A stretch of 64,000 nucleotides of DNA from Verrucomicrobiia bacterium (GTDB taxonomy: Bacteria; Verrucomicrobiota; Verrucomicrobiia; Verrucomicrobiales; Akkermansiaceae): positions 62,001-126,000 of the forward strand of contig CANHQJ010000005.1 in the NCBI GenBank assembly GCA_947462875.1, written 5' to 3'. Of the stretch, positions 30,556 through 50,424 are shown in pieces. Every line of letters begins with the position of its first letter. Position 1 is the stretch's first letter. Below the pieces are notes generated by a model. That model ran no database searches. It was given only the letters and a program-made list of their open reading frames with translations, and was not told the DNA's origin. The position numbers and the translations under genes were made by a program.

Positions 30556-30587
30556 GGAGCAGGGATTGCAAATCCCTTCTCCATATT
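30551..30587. repeat. Dispersed palindromic repeat at a gene 3' end
   Basis: A hairpin: GGAG (30556-30559), AGGGATT (30561-30567), loop GCA, AATCCCT (30571-30577), CTCC (30579-30582), flanked by CCTAA and ATAT. The same words recur at 47662-47688 and 47717-47744. It could work as a terminator, but no T run follows. Confidence 0.85.
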
Positions 30588-42551: not shown

Positions 42552-43473
42552 CAAAAAAAATCCCCAGCTCGGCACACTCAAAAGGCGCAGCGTCTCCCTG
42601 CTCACCGCGCTGACTTTTCTCGTGCTCGCCCTCACCGGCGTGCTCGCCTTCATCCAGCCGTTTTCGCTAGGGATTATCGGCCTGCACTCCTTGATGGGCT
42701 TTGTTTTCATCGCTCTCATCGTCCTCCACATCACCAACAACAGCCGCCCGCTGACGAGCTACCTGCGCAGCAAATCCTTGTGGACCACACTCGCCCTCAC
42801 CGCGCTGCTCACCGCCCTTTTCTGGTGGCAACCCGCGCCCGTGAAACAAATCCTCTCGCTCAGCGGCAACCTCGGCCCCGCGATGGAGCGCTTCGACATG
42901 AGTGAGGATCAGATGGTTTTCCACTACAGCCCCTCGCCCGACTACAAAATGCGGCTCGATGTCAAAACCGGCCCCGCCTATGACACCACCCCGCCGCCCG
43001 TGGTCAGCATCTGGCTGGAAAACCAGGGCGGCTATCACATCAAGACCCTGCTCGCCCCCACCGACCCGAACGAAACTCCCTACTGGAAATTCAAACACGC
43101 GGGCTGGGAAAAAGCCAAGGCCGATGCAGAGAAAACGCCCATCGACGCCGTCACGTCCCCCACCCCCAACGGCTCCTTCGACCCCGCCGACTACATCCTC
43201 CCCAGTGCTAACAAAGAAGACGCCACACCCTACAGTCTGTTCCTGGAAATCAATCAACCCGGCGACAACCAGGCATCGTTGGTCTATTCCGTGGAGATCG
43301 ACAACACCCTGCCGCGCACCTACCAATTGTTGGACCAACGCGGCTTCCCCAAACGCGAGCCCGACGATGAAAACGGCAAGGAAACCTGGGGCCTGTACTA
43401 CGTCGATAGTACCTTCACCACCGCCCTCGACCTCATCGACAGCGCCTTGCTGACCCTGGAGCGCGGACTTTAG
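42544..43473 (+). CDS. DUF4405-like membrane protein with DUF2271-like periplasmic domain
   Basis: A 309 aa protein. Three hydrophobic helices are within residues 15-100. The second contains GLHSLMGFVFIALIVLH, in which His48 and His62 could ligate haem b as in DUF4405/cytochrome b561-like proteins. The extracytoplasmic part includes PPVVSIWLENQGGYHIKTLLAP, like DUF2271, a domain often encoded next to apbE. It starts inside the oxidoreductase gene. The stop codon lies inside an intergenic repeat (43465-43494), so the last residues ERGL come from repeat sequence. Confidence 0.75.
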   Translation: MSNKKNPQLGTLKRRSVSLLTALTFLVLALTGVLAFIQPFSLGIIGLHSLMGFVFIALIVLHITNNSRPLTSYLRSKSLWTTLALTALLTALFWWQPAPVKQILSLSGNLGPAMERFDMSEDQMVFHYSPSPDYKMRLDVKTGPAYDTTPPPVVSIWLENQGGYHIKTLLAPTDPNETPYWKFKHAGWEKAKADAEKTPIDAVTSPTPNGSFDPADYILPSANKEDATPYSLFLEINQPGDNQASLVYSVEIDNTLPRTYQLLDQRGFPKREPDDENGKETWGLYYVDSTFTTALDLIDSALLTLERGL

Positions 43474-43494
43474 TCCGCAAGGCTGCAAGGATTC
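43465..43494 (+). repeat. 30-bp direct repeat, copy 1
   Basis: Starts GGACTTTAGTCCGCA and ends AAGGATTC; 27 of 30 bases match 43613-43642. It contains the TAG stop of the DUF4405-like gene. The first 18 bases counted from 43458 (GGAGCGCGGACTTTAGTC) recur at 61525-61542 with one change. Confidence 0.9.
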
Positions 43495-43522
43495 GTAAGT
43501 TCCTCAGCACCAAGGGTGCGCC

Positions 43523-43555
43523 ACAAGCCAGTCCCGCTCAGCGGGACTGGCTTGT
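43523..43555. repeat. Perfect 16-bp inverted repeat with 1-nt centre
   Basis: ACAAGCCAGTCCCGCT (43523-43538), centre C, and its exact complement (43540-43555). It is strong enough to be a terminator for the apbE operon but lacks a T run; a cruciform or repeat-element role is equally possible. Confidence 0.9.
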
Positions 43556-43839: not shown

Positions 43840-44049
43840 CCCGTCCTAACGGGCAAGATCGCGTGAGGCGAGCCTTTAACGCGACGCCTCATCGGGACGT
43901 CGGAGTCTTCTGCATGATCCTCGATGAAAATCGATCTGTGGGATGGAATCGCGACACACGATGAAGCGTCCTGTTAGGACGCGAAAATTTGTTGGAAATC
44001 CTATACCCACGGTTTCTCCGTGGGCTGATATGAAATGTCCCTATAGGAC
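43840..44049. repeat. Cluster of four short hairpins
   Basis: CCCGT/ACGGG (43840-43844, 43849-43853), GCGTCCT/AGGACGC (43966-43972, 43976-43982), CCCACGG/CCGTGGG (44006-44012, 44018-44024) and GTCC/GGAC (44037-44040, 44046-44049). Regular small stems in otherwise non-coding sequence. Confidence 0.75.
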
Positions 44050-44268: not shown

Positions 44269-44388
44269 ATGAAACTGCTCTCTTCTTTTCTTGTTGTGCT
44301 TTTCGCCTTGGCTGGTCTGCAATCTTGTTGTGCCAGCAAATCGGTGGAAGCTCCGCCCAAACCGACCTACCAGGCTCCCAAGGTCTAA
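44269..44388 (+). CDS. Tiny lipoprotein, 39 aa
   Basis: A 39 aa protein starting MKLLSSFLVVLFALAGLQSCC. The hydrophobic leader and LQSC form a lipobox with Cys20 as the lipidated residue, followed by a second Cys. The mature peptide is only about 20 residues and Pro/Lys-rich (EAPPKPTYQAPKV). It is followed 40 bp later by a second small lipoprotein gene that shares a terminator with it. No family recognised; the size recalls entericidin-like lipoproteins. Confidence 0.7.
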   Translation: MKLLSSFLVVLFALAGLQSCCASKSVEAPPKPTYQAPKV

Positions 44389-44428: not shown

Positions 44429-44587
44429 ATGATCCGCACCCTGACACTCATCGCCTTGGCCGCCACGGCCCTGATCTCCAGCTCCTGCTGCTTTTGCTGC
44501 ACCAGTGACTCCAAAGCACCTGGCTTGAAAAAGCTGCCGAAATTCCGCGAGTTCCCCACGGCTCCTGAAGTCAGCTACGAGAAATAA
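44429..44587 (+). CDS. Small cysteine-rich lipoprotein, 52 aa
   Basis: A 52 aa protein with leader MIRTLTLIALAATALISSSC. Cys20 is the likely lipidated residue, and the following residues give CCFCC, four cysteines in five positions. The mature part (APGLKKLPKFREFPTAPEVSYEK) is basic and Pro-rich. Second of two tandem small lipoprotein genes ending at a strong terminator. No family recognised; the Cys cluster might bind a metal or form disulfides. Confidence 0.72.
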   Translation: MIRTLTLIALAATALISSSCCFCCTSDSKAPGLKKLPKFREFPTAPEVSYEK

Positions 44588-44610
44588 TTTTTCTTCTCTT
44601 TCGCAATCAA

Positions 44611-44643
44611 GCAGACCTTCCCACGCGGAAGGTCTGCTTTTTT
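44611..44643 (+). terminator. Rho-independent terminator of the small lipoprotein genes
   Basis: A perfect 11-bp stem GCAGACCTTCC (44611-44621) / GGAAGGTCTGC (44627-44637), 5-nt loop, then TTTTTT. Confidence 0.95.
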
Positions 44644-44703
44644 CGTTGATTGTCGGAACTCTCCACCGCCGGGCTCTGTCGTTGGATCAACCGCATCGCA
44701 CGG

Positions 44704-44730
44704 ACGCAACCCCGATGGGGTAGGTGAATT
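44704..44730 (+). repeat. Hairpin-B module, isolated copy
   Basis: ACGCAA, then the hairpin CCCC-GAT-GGGG (44710-44720), then TAGGTGAATT. The tail TAGGTGAATT is identical to that at 45341-45350, and GGACGCAA also occurs at 45236-45243. Confidence 0.85.
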
Positions 44731-44773
44731 TTTCTATTCCATGGGGGGGGTGTACCGACGGTGCTTTGCCTTT

Positions 44774-44836
44774 CTATCCCCACGGGATTGCGTCCCAGAG
44801 CCCGGGGTTGTCGCGCGGCGGCGCGGCTACCCGGGG
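44774..44836 (-). repeat. Composite two-hairpin repeat, minus orientation
   Basis: Read on the minus strand: a nested hairpin (44836-44801) with outer arms CCCCGGGT/ACCCCGGG and inner CGCGC/GCGCG, flanks TAGC and ACAA. CTCTGGGACGCA and the hairpin ATCCC-GTG-GGGAT follow. The plus-orientation copy is at 45280-45350. Confidence 0.85.
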
Positions 44837-45279
44837 ACGTGCCACAGGATTTTCCTACCCTGTCAGAGTCACGCCCGGGTATGATTGTGTTAGACTAGCG
44901 CGTATCAAATTTTGTGCATATTGACTTTGCGCACCAACGGAGCAGATACTCGAAAGCCCAGTGCAGCGCGCTGGGGACAAATCCACCAAACAAGTCACCA
45001 AGCCCTGCAAGGGCGTAACTCGACTGTATGCCATTTCCTGGCATTTTTCACTGCGAGTATCGCACTTTCAGCGCTGAAAAATCGTGTGCACATCCATCCC
45101 AGGGCGTTGCCCATGGGCTATCGAGTGGTTGCACCTTTGGTGCGTTTGAGAGCAAAAGAATGCCGCCACTCAACATTCCGGTTATTGCAAAAACCACAAA
45201 TCTTCATGCGTGGCAGCATAGGACCGCATCGCCACGGACGCAACCCTTGCAGGGTAAAAGAAATTTGTTTGTGCATTTT

Positions 45280-45350
45280 CCTAGGGTAGCCACGCCATCG
45301 GCGTGACAACCCTAGGCTTTGGGACAGTACCCCGGCGGGGTAGGTGAATT
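45280..45350 (+). repeat. Composite two-hairpin repeat, plus orientation
   Basis: The nested hairpin has outer arms CCTAGGGT (45280-45287) / ACCCTAGG (45309-45316) and inner CACGCC (45291-45296) / GGCGTG (45300-45305), flanks AGC and ACA. CTTTGGGACAG, then the hairpin CCCC-GGC-GGGG (45330-45340) and TAGGTGAATT follow. Confidence 0.88.
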
Positions 45351-45401: not shown

Positions 45402-45434
45402 AAAAAAATGAGGTCAGACCGAAGTCTGACCTCA
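45402..45434 (-). terminator. Rho-independent terminator of the surface-protein unit
   Basis: Stem TGAGGTCAGAC (45409-45419) / GTCTGACCTCA (45424-45434), 4-nt loop. On the minus strand it is followed by a T run (complement of A 45402-45408). It sits 34 bp beyond the stop at 45468. Confidence 0.93.
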
Positions 45435-45467
45435 TCAAAGAGAAACCAATCTCAATTCAAACAAATC

Positions 45468-47661: not shown

Positions 47662-47744
47662 CCTAAGGAGCAGGGATTTTCAATCCCTGAACATGATCAT
47701 GACCGGGGCTGTTAAGAAAGGGATTGAAGATCCCTTCTCCATAG
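47662..47744. repeat. Two copies of the dispersed palindromic repeat
   Basis: The first copy reads CCTAAGGAGCAGGGATT, loop, AATCCCT (47662-47688). The second half-element is AAGGGATTGAAGATCCCTT then CTCCATAG (47718-47744). Both match the hairpin at 30551-30587. The second one encodes the last residues of the type III PKS. Confidence 0.85.
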
Positions 47745-48752
47745 CTCGCAGGCGTGGGCGGCGAAGCCGGCGCCGAAGGCGGTGAGCCAGTAGCGTTGGT
47801 CGGGCGGGGCGGCGTCGAGGCGCTGCTCCAGGGCCATCAGCACGGAGGGGCTGCTCATGTTGCCGCAGCGGGCGAAGACGGAGCGGGTCTCGTCCAAGGT
47901 GAAGGGCAACACATTTTCCAGAGACTCGATGACATCGCGTCCGCCGGAGTGGGCGATGACTTGATCGGGATCGGCCGTGCGGCGGGCGTAGAGCGCGGCG
48001 ACGGCTTCGCCCGCGAGCTGCGGGACGGTGCGGTGCAGTTGGTTCTTGAGTTTCCCCTGATCATTGCGGAAGCGGATTTTTTCGCGGTGCTCGGGCCGAT
48101 GCGTGGTGGTGAAATGGCCGGCTTGCCATTGGTCCGCAGTTCCCTCGCCCGTCCAGATCGAGGCCGAGGCACCATCGCCGAACAGGCAGAGGCTGATGAG
48201 CACGCCGGGGTCGTGATTGACAAAAAAAGCGGCGGAGCAAATTTCCACGGCGATCACCGCGACCTTCGCCTGCGGATGGGCGGCGAGGTAACCGTGCGCC
48301 GCGCGCATGGTGGGGATGGCGGCACCGCAGCCGAGGCCCACGAGATCGCAGAGATACACGTCATCGCGCAATCCACCGAGCTCCGCGACGTGCGAGCTGA
48401 CGCCGGGGCAAAGGTAGCCGGTGCAGGTGCAGAGAAAAACGGCATCGAGATCCGTGGCGTAAAGGCCGGCGCGCGCGAGGGCTTTTTCCAGAGCGGCAAG
48501 GGAAAGACGCGGGGCCTCGTGCTCGAAGGTTTCATTGAGCTGCTGGGCATCGGAACAAAACAAGCGCGTGAGGTCATCCGTGGCGTAGTGGCGGGTCTGG
48601 ATGCCCGATGGCCCGAGCATGACTTTTTCCACCAGCTGCCGGGCATTCGGCGAGCAAGCGGCGAACCAATCGCTGTTCTGGATCAGCGAAAAACAATCGG
48701 CTTGCGAGAGCGTCGTGGTGGGGGTGGCGGAGGCGAGAGAGAGCAGGTACAT
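47712..48752 (-). CDS. Type III polyketide synthase (chalcone/stilbene synthase family)
   Basis: A 346 aa homodimeric-type ketosynthase that condenses malonyl-CoA onto an acyl starter. The catalytic triad is visible: Cys142 in VGLGCGAA, His267 in [13 protein letters not shown] and Asn297 in CGNMSS. His is followed by SGG rather than the usual PGG. The sequence is closest in style to bacterial alkylpyrone/alkylresorcinol synthases. The ATG at 48752 overlaps the stop of the FAD gene (TGATG). The final residues (WRRDLQSLS) come from a dispersed repeat. The long 5' extension to 49124 is a shadow. Confidence 0.92.
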
Positions 48753-49768
48753 CAGCGGCGGGTGTGAGAGAAGAGGAGAGAAAACGGCAGCAATTGTTCT
48801 TGGGCGAGGATTTCCAAAGGTCGGCGGAACCATGGTGCCAGGAGCAGGCCTTGGCAAGTGCCGGCGAGCGAGAGGCGTCGGGTGAAAGCACGTCGGGCGG
48901 TCTGCCGCACGAGGGCGCACGATAGGTCCCAATCGATCTCCCCACGGGCGTAGCGCTGGAGGGGAGGGACGGCGAGCGCGGCGGCCTCCAGCGCCATGCT
49001 CATGCCATTCCCGGTGAAGGGTGGAATGATGCTGTGCGCATCGCCCAGGCTCATGAGTCCGGGCAGCGGCGGCTGGAGGCCGAGGCGGAATCCCGCCACG
49101 GCGCTCTCCGAGTGCTCCCGCCACGGCACCCGGTGCAATCGTGTGGCGAGATCTTCGAGGCCATTGTGGCGCAGGTAGGTGAGCAGGAGCGGTTCGGAGC
49201 TACGGGCGCGTTCCGGCATAAGGCGGAACAAGCCACAGACATTGACCCAGCCGTCCTCCACCGCGACGAGGCCGACGTAGCCGTGGGAGCCGAGGTGCAT
49301 TTCCAACGAGTGGTCGAGATCCAGATCGCGCACATGGGCCTTCAGGCCGATCCACGGGCCCTTCGCCGGGCGGCGTCCGGCGGTCCAGACCAGGCCGGGA
49401 GCGGGCACAGGCGCGACACGGGAATTTTCGCAAATCTCGCCACCGAGCGCGCGGAATTGCCGGCTGAGCACTTCATCCAGGGCGAAGCGGGAAAGGGCGC
49501 GGGCTGGTTCCGGCAGCGAGAAGCGGCTGAGGAAATGCGAGCCACTCCACCAACGGACTTGCTGCGGTCGGTGGGCGGGGGCGAGGGCGGCATCGATCCC
49601 CAACGACGCCAACGTTTCATCGCTCACGCCCGAGATGAACTCGCCGCACACGCGGTGCCGCGGGTAGCGCAGCGCCTCGTGCAAGGTCACCGGCACCCCC
49701 ACGCGGCGCAGAGCGATGCCCAGTGCCAATCCCGCGAGGCCGCCGCCGGCGATGGTGATCGTTTTCAT
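48752..49768 (-). CDS. FAD-dependent oxidoreductase (geranylgeranyl reductase/monooxygenase-like)
   Basis: A 338 aa flavoprotein. The N-terminal ADP-binding motif [19 protein letters not shown] has GxGxxG at 8-13. [13 protein letters not shown] follows, as in geranylgeranyl-reductase-related enzymes, and the second FAD motif is [24 protein letters not shown]. It probably oxidises or reduces the polyketide product. The start at 49768 overlaps the methyltransferase stop (ATGA) and its stop overlaps the PKS start, giving a strict three-gene operon. Confidence 0.9.
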
Positions 49769-50424
49769 TTCCTGCGCCATACACTGCGATAGGCCCCGGG
49801 CCATGATTCTTTTTCCTCGATATCCCAGTCGGCCAGCGGAGCGGTCCAGAGGCGTGGCAATTCTCCGGGGAGAAATCCGGCATCGATGCTGACATGCATG
49901 TCGCGCCGCGTCACCTCTTGCAGCCACGGGCGGAGCAGCCGGCCCCAGAAATGCGAGCTACCTCGGCGCAGCGGCTCATTGAGGATGACCAGCGACACGT
50001 GCGGCAGCCAGGCGGCGAACCATGCGAGCGAGTCATCCGTAAAATGGTGCAAAAACAAATTCGCCACCAGCACGCCGAAATCCCGCGAGGGTGCTTGCGT
50101 GGTGAGATCGCCCGAGCGCCAGTCTATGCCCTGCGGCAACTGAGAAGGCCGCTCCAGCAGATCCGCGCCACAGACCCGGCACTGGGGAAAACGCTCGTGG
50201 ATTTTCCGCGACAACCGCCCCTCGCCCGCCCCCAGCTCCAGCACGCCCTGCGCGGTGGCGGCGGGGTATTTTGCCAATTGCGCGAGAATCCAGCGCTCAT
50301 TGCCCATGAGGGCATTGATCCAGCGCAGCTCCTTTCGCGAGCGGATGGCACGCGGGTCATCGGCTGGCAATTCATCCAACCATTCCGGCACCACGATGCG
50401 CGACTGTTCGCTTTGTTTTCCCAC
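49765..50424 (-). CDS. Class I SAM-dependent methyltransferase
   Basis: A 219 aa protein with SAM-binding motif I GVLELGAGEGRLSR (60-73), an acidic residue in CGADLLERP, and motif LVANLFLHHFTDDSL. The sequence resembles small-molecule methyltransferases. It is first gene of the PKS operon and overlaps the FAD gene by 4 bp, so it probably methylates the polyketide or its quinone form. Confidence 0.9.
   Translation of the reverse strand: MGKQSEQSRIVVPEWLDELPADDPRAIRSRKELRWINALMGNERWILAQLAKYPAATAQGVLELGAGEGRLSRKIHERFPQCRVCGADLLERPSQLPQGIDWRSGDLTTQAPSRDFGVLVANLFLHHFTDDSLAWFAAWLPHVSLVILNEPLRRGSSHFWGRLLRPWLQEVTRRDMHVSIDAGFLPGELPRLWTAPLADWDIEEKESWPGAYRSVWRRK

Follow-up and report, generated by a model that had tools for sequence, protein, structure and literature searches.

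A three-hairpin repeat of Verrucomicrobiota linked to IS200-like transposase genes: a probable family of non-autonomous REP-like elements

The window, that is the whole 64 kb stretch of DNA that was analysed, carries two inverted copies of a repeat made of three hairpins, A, B and C. The A-B-C family to which they belong is real, structure-conserved, mobile and linked to an IS200-like transposase, and it is neither a canonical REP of class 2 RAYTs nor a standard IS200/IS605 insertion sequence. With a probability that we put at roughly 0.84, the window repeats are non-autonomous REP/REPIN-like A-B-C elements that depend for their mobility on an IS200-like transposase acting in trans and are orphaned in this genome. 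A preliminary description of this DNA had offered two readings, structural selection and mobility of a hairpin element, and both are supported by the further copies, the covariation and the bracketing of a transposase gene reported here.

Anatomy of the repeats in the window

The repeat had been described as a nested hairpin followed by a second hairpin, present in both orientations, and both copies lie where that account placed them (Table 1), with the core GGGTAGCC..GACAACCC occurring at just these two sites in 64 kb. The stem changes that it listed are correct as well: one outer pair changes from T-A to C-G, one inner pair from A-T to G-C, and the single outer-stem mismatch of the minus copy is C-C. 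The nested and the second hairpin are indeed present, but the unit is larger than described, an upstream hairpin (A) having been overlooked, and each copy holds three hairpins. Specifically, a second full copy in the window genome (C22, locus L002) shares 83% identity with the plus copy in an alignment of 124 bases, and since this alignment takes in the upstream hairpin, the unit is defined as A, the nested B and C. The hairpin at 44704-44730, reported as a third copy of the second hairpin, scores instead as hairpin A of a partial third element.

Table 1. Features of the repeat cluster, in window coordinates
Feature	Position	Strand	Evidence or remark
Intrinsic terminator of the upstream + strand gene	44609..44639	+	left bound of cluster
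Partial third element	44701..44791	+	R1, 32.9 bits, E 3.4e-6; guide GGAC and hairpin A (44709-44721), B lost, C common with minus copy
Complete A-B-C element, minus copy	44773..44877	-	inverted partner; R1, 71.6 bits, E 2.3e-15
Hairpin C, minus copy	44776..44788	-	R1 match
Guide-like GGACGCA 5' of C, minus copy	44789..44795	-	
Nested hairpin B, minus copy	44801..44836	-	one outer C-C mismatch
Hairpin A, minus copy	44857..44869	-	degenerate
Complete A-B-C element, plus copy	45235..45344	+	covariance model R1, 79.1 bits, E 3.9e-17
DNA fold centroid, plus copy	45235..45344	+	exactly three hairpins
Guide-like GGACGCA 5' of hairpin A	45236..45242	+	A/C 5' base match within elements
Hairpin A (ACCCTTGCAGGGT)	45243..45255	+	helix 1 of covariation alignment
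Hairpin B, nested palindrome	45280..45316	+	helix 2 of covariation alignment
Hairpin B stems	45280..45316	+	outer CCTAGGGT/ACCCTAGG, inner CACGCC/GGCGTG
Conserved CT directly 3' of B (GGCT)	45317..45318	+	GCT invariant in element alignment
Guide-like GGACAGT 5' of hairpin C	45322..45328	+	A/C 5' base match within elements
Hairpin C (ACCCCGGCGGGGT)	45329..45341	+	fixed-offset covariation in 157 elements; helix 3
Intrinsic terminator of the convergent PEP-CTERM-like gene	45407..45436	-	right bound of cluster

The conserved CTyTGGGAC of the earlier account includes GGAC, which is also found 5' of hairpin A, and in both places it behaves like a guide sequence of the IS200 type. The two copies are separated by 357 bp. 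Folded alone, the minus copy is no better than its shuffled versions (z = -0.6; plus copy, z = -2.75) and therefore looks decayed. In the window genome, whose assembly is 97.7% complete, the exact window subtype was not found within 1.5 kb of any of the four Y1 loci, so that the window copies look like orphans. The pair is probably a decaying orphan doublet. Both copies are among the 31 sequences from which the covariance model R1 was built, and independent support thus comes from the other copies and from the flank controls.

Further repeats were seen around the pair. By eye, the interval between the two copies holds another three-hairpin unit at 45007-45150 (CCCTGCAAGGGCG ... CCCAGGGCGTTGCCCATGGGCTA ... 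GCACCTTTGGTGC), which is like that of the Y1 locus L008 and gave no significant match by BLAST. A repeat at 43457-43534 shows 79% identity to the sequence flanking the L008 Y1 gene on its left. About 700 bp upstream, the repeat at 43962-44014 (GAAGCGTCCTGTTAGGACGC...CCCACGGTT) has 79% identity to the sequence flanking another Y1 gene (L006) of the window genome, and hence represents a second type of such repeats.

Conservation of pairing among the copies

The covariation analysis suggested in the preliminary description was carried out on an alignment of 31 elements with three helices, and the values obtained were well over those of both types of control. The covariation score was 0.403, compared to 0.153 ± 0.012 for shuffled and 0.05-0.11 for slid alignments, and 94.0% of the cells were paired, compared to 27-54% after sliding by 1-3 columns. 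Changes on both sides were found in 17 of the 23 pairs, with 107 compensatory cells. Helix 1, corresponding to hairpin A, is 100% paired and has both-side changes in 3 of its 5 pairs, while in helix 2, corresponding to hairpin B, such changes affect 9 of 13 pairs. The pairing of the inner part of B is looser, the innermost pair being unpaired in 16 of the 31 sequences.

The A and C hairpins of this alignment had mostly been chosen as good palindromes; for this reason, an unselected test was added, in which hairpin C was read at a fixed offset after GGCT in 157 elements. Pairing reached 79% on average, compared to 28-49% for slid positions, and the five core positions were paired in 83-96% of the elements, with several pair types per position. 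Both the anatomy and the covariation were computed directly.

Preserved pairing through compensatory changes is also what a conserved RNA would display, be it a riboswitch, a small RNA or a set of hairpins stabilising or terminating an mRNA, and elements of this kind are able to act secondarily in RNA. We nevertheless consider it improbable that the window repeats are conserved as RNA. G-U pairs are almost absent from the 31-element alignment, and the copies occur in both orientations, as inverted doublets and as tandem arrays, and bracket a transposase gene. In addition, Rfam returned 0 matches in the window at the gathering threshold, and the cluster lies between two convergent terminators. 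On these last two grounds, a structured RNA was rejected and single-stranded or mobile DNA was favoured.

Transposase genes, their products and the guide-like sequences

A search for a nearby transposase had also been suggested; in relatives, a Y1 transposase gene is bracketed by the element. At the DNA level, diverged copies with the same layout were detected in a search of 145 family genomes. In genome G130, two complete inverted elements enclose a Y1_Tnp gene, with hairpin A gene-proximal and hairpin C outermost. When five such transposases were aligned and used to scan named genomes, 80 loci were obtained, mostly from metagenome-assembled genomes of Verrucomicrobiota and Planctomycetota, with a few isolates in addition; flanked genes occur, for example, in Verrucomicrobium sp. 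BvORR034 and BvORR106 and in Haloferula sp. BvORR071. The flanks of the gene form an inverted repeat (local alignment score >=40) in 66 of these 80 loci, compared to 0 of 131 shifted positions in the same loci and to a rate of 11% when flanks of different genes are paired. With a pattern for B, a minus-oriented element was found on the left side of 42 genes and a plus-oriented one on the right side of 40, compared to 19 and 10 genes, respectively, for the opposite orientations. Among 141 genomes, R1 matches and the transposase were both present in 46, the model alone in 8, the transposase alone in 19 and neither in 68 (p = 9e-14, a statistic in which related genomes are not independent). The gene bracketing, like the guide match described below, was computed directly.

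The flank controls bear on the suspicion that the likeness between copies is due to chance among G+C-rich hairpins. Short G/C hairpins are frequent in such genomes, but the R1 E-values of the window copies (1e-15 to 1e-17), the slid and shuffled controls and the 0/131 flank controls refute chance similarity, to which we give next to no credence.

The flanked proteins are ~150 aa long and match the IS200/IS605 transposase model of NCBIfam (NF033573) above its cut-off. They show the motifs D-H-u-H (79/80), WQ or WE (80/80) and Y---Q--HH (80/80); they are thus IS200-like Y1 HUH transposases with the motif signature of TnpA_Y1 subclass 1.2. The predicted structure (mean pLDDT 87.5) is nearest to the IS608 and ISDra2 transposases, with E about 4e-7, and matches the E. 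coli REP transposase more weakly (E 3e-3). In seven of these genomes, no tnpB-type gene (PF07282) was found. Subclass 1.2 has been described mostly in Cyanobacteria and Bacteroidetes, and is listed with 'no' for REP (Quentin et al. 2018, PMC6006769). The proteins studied here agree with it in DH[VI]H, WQ and Y---Q--HH, in a length of about 150 aa and in having few copies per genome, and differ in that their loci are mostly from Verrucomicrobiota and Planctomycetota and are repeat-bracketed in the proportion given above. The A-B-C element would supply a repeat substrate for a transposase subclass reported without any.

These data also weigh on a reading in which the window repeats would belong to a class 2 RAYT as canonical REPs of the GTAG type, hairpin B representing the REP and GTAG its tag. 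The window subtype does contain GGGTAG, in which GTAG immediately precedes the inner B hairpin, the layout of the G130 locus is REPtron-like, and GTAG REPs are reported from the verrucomicrobium Opitutus terrae (PMC3733652). Against this, GTAG is absent from hairpin B in other subtypes of the element (CCCAGGGTGCGC.., CCCAGGGTTCTTCG..), the class 2 motif Y---NP occurs in 0 of the 80 flanked proteins, all of which have Y---Q--HH, and the predicted fold is nearer to the IS200/IS605 TnpA than to the E. coli RAYT. With GTAG not kept across subtypes and an enzyme that is not of class 2, canonical GTAG REPs are disfavoured, and we hold them to be an improbable explanation.

The sequences preceding hairpins A and C connect the elements to the enzymes in a further way. 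Compared over seven bases, the 5' sequences of A and C agree at 54% within an element, as against 38 ± 1.4% for shuffled partners, and taking one element per locus gives 53% against 36 ± 2%. For the stems of the two hairpins, belonging to the same element brings no gain in agreement (68%, compared to 65% between elements). A shared 5' sequence next to drifting stems is not what a simple recent duplication of the hairpin would give; the matched 5' sequences of A and C fit what would be expected of IS200-type guide sequences. They vary between elements, with GGAC, TGAT and TTGT among them, and loci with more similar transposases tend to have more similar 5' sequences (Mantel r 0.34; sd 0.05 and maximum 0.17 in 2000 permutations), a relationship that can come partly from shared ancestry. 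Variation between elements together with this tracking of the transposase provides many natural guide/enzyme pairs for tests of cleavage-site choice. In IS200/IS605 elements, each hairpin is preceded by a tetranucleotide that selects the cleavage site, and TnpA_REP enzymes cut between C and T (PMC8266576). By analogy with these enzymes, the conserved CT after hairpin B is a possible candidate for the cleavage dinucleotide. A covariation scan for a base-complementary guide partner near the element gave no signal (best z 2.8 in several hundred tests).

The transposase locus has the layout [C'B'A']-tnpA-[ABC], with gene-free singles, inverted doublets and tandem arrays elsewhere; A and C are the short hairpins that follow the same guide-like sequence, and B is the long, usually nested palindrome between them, with GGCT after it. 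On the precedent of IS200/IS605 transposases acting on their ends and of TnpA_REP acting on REPs, we infer the binding, the cleavage, the transposition and the strand state as follows. When the DNA becomes single-stranded, for instance on the lagging-strand template, the transposase may bind the hairpins and cleave close by, at a site set by the 5' guide; the doublet would then be moved or copied to a new intergenic site.

Dispersal of the element and its relation to known systems

Further copies, which the preliminary description had named as a check on the repeat, are present in the window genome, where R1 has 14 matches at E < 1e-3. They include two tight doublets (C14 and C27) and flank two of the three IS200-like genes of this genome (C21 and C2). 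The doublet at C14 looks, by eye, like the repeats next to a Y1 gene (locus L042) in a genome of the same genus (G042). At E <= 1e-6, R1 matches were found in 54 of 141 family genomes and in 12 of a 145-genome phylum sample; per-genome copy numbers from these searches are lower bounds, with ~28 candidates scored per genome in the large searches. Adjacent matches are in -/+ order in 31 cases from 12 genomes and in +/- order in 9 cases from 6 genomes, and same-strand neighbours overlap by 24 bases, the C of one unit being the A of the next. Genomes G121 and G227 contain tandem arrays with C and A shared in this way and a period of 85 bases.

Dispersed doublets with spacers of 9-87 nt are common in 12 genomes. 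This bears on a sub-variant of the favoured reading, according to which the window pair did not move as a doublet and represents the ends of a full transposase locus after deletion of the gene. The inverted layout is that of gene-flanking pairs, and the gap between the window copies exceeds the usual doublet spacer. The frequency of dispersed doublets, the two tight ones in the same genome and the failure to find a Y1 match in the interval between the window copies argue the other way, and we judge gene deletion to be unlikely, if still a serious candidate, next to a doublet that moved by itself.

The evidence for mobility comes from genome G215 and not from the window copies. At least 27 copies were counted there, with one flanked cognate gene, and among 14 loci that were aligned, most consist of two inverted elements with a short spacer, similar outer ends and unrelated flanks. 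As a separate observation made by eye, the outer ends of the doublets at loci L157-L170 look like a terminal inverted repeat (ATTATTAAGGAGTGCAAAATA), often beside a start codon. The closest relative, G274, whose flanks are 94-98% identical, is without the doublet at 3 of 3 syntenic sites tested, site lengths in G274 and G215 being 46 versus 325 bp, 36 versus 352 bp and 3 versus 325 bp, respectively. Unrelated filler of 36-46 bp occupies two of the empty sites, and the third falls short of being base-perfect; over the 8.1 kb stretch with three units that was compared, 2 of 3 sites were readable. The difference shows the gain or loss of a whole unit, but neither a base-perfect event nor its direction. 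Dispersal and presence or absence between close relatives were again computed directly.

Several properties are shared with REPs and REPtrons (TnpA_REP/RAYT, class 2): palindromic, intergenic, dispersed repeats found as singles, inverted doublets (REPIN/BIME-like) and tandem arrays, which bracket a low-copy Y1 HUH gene in addition to their dispersed copies, and whose type tracks the type of transposase. A class 2 REP, however, is one palindrome of ~20-50 nt after GTAG or GTGG, whereas the A-B-C element has three hairpins, two of them with a common, variable 5' sequence, and in the window subtype GTAG lies inside B; the enzyme differs as well, with Y---Q--HH in place of Y---NP and a fold nearer to the IS200 TnpA. 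With IS200/IS605 elements such as IS608 and ISDra2, the A-B-C system shares the enzyme family, by NCBIfam NF033573 and predicted fold, and hairpin ends with a 5' guide-like sequence. It differs from them in lacking a tnpB-type gene in the seven genomes searched, in its few and divergent gene copies, and in ends that are symmetrical inverted units also spread without the gene. Near-identical copies of a gene with its ends, as in IS200/IS605, were not seen: the Y1 genes of the window genome are divergent from one another, and G215 has one flanked gene.

Di Nocera et al. 2013 (PMC3733652) presented GTAG REPs and TIRYTs, with Opitutus terrae among their sources, which are comparable in being verrucomicrobial palindromes and in having REPs or inverted repeats on the flanks of Y1 genes. 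Their families are single stem-loops of 20-40 bp tagged GTAG or CGTC, and the text sections of that paper describe no three-hairpin unit. Our literature search for the A-B-C element found no description of it. Through this element, common unnamed intergenic hairpins of Verrucomicrobiota and Planctomycetota are tied to a mobility system, and the covariance model offers an annotation route for repeats that otherwise resemble structured RNAs. More tentatively, at a little under even odds, subclass 1.2 and the A-B-C element may form a third IS200-derived system parallel to class 2 RAYT/REP, with a mobile unit made of two hairpins that have the same evolving guide and of an intervening palindrome that maybe holds the cleavage site, and with a wide spread in PVC bacteria, where one lineage of small transposases keeps many guide types per genome.

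Elsewhere in the window, the repeats at 47662-47748 and 30561-30585 (AGGGATTTGCAATCCCT) match the flanks of a fourth Y1 gene (L009), whose product carries Y---NP, the motif of class 2, and matches a REP transposase just below threshold. A tandem pair of tiny lipoprotein-like genes lies at 44269-44388 and 44429-44587, the latter with an unusual SCCFCC motif and without a Pfam match. On the minus strand, at 47712-50424, adjoining genes for a type III polyketide synthase, an FAD oxidoreductase and a methyltransferase (Pfam) possibly form a small biosynthetic cluster.
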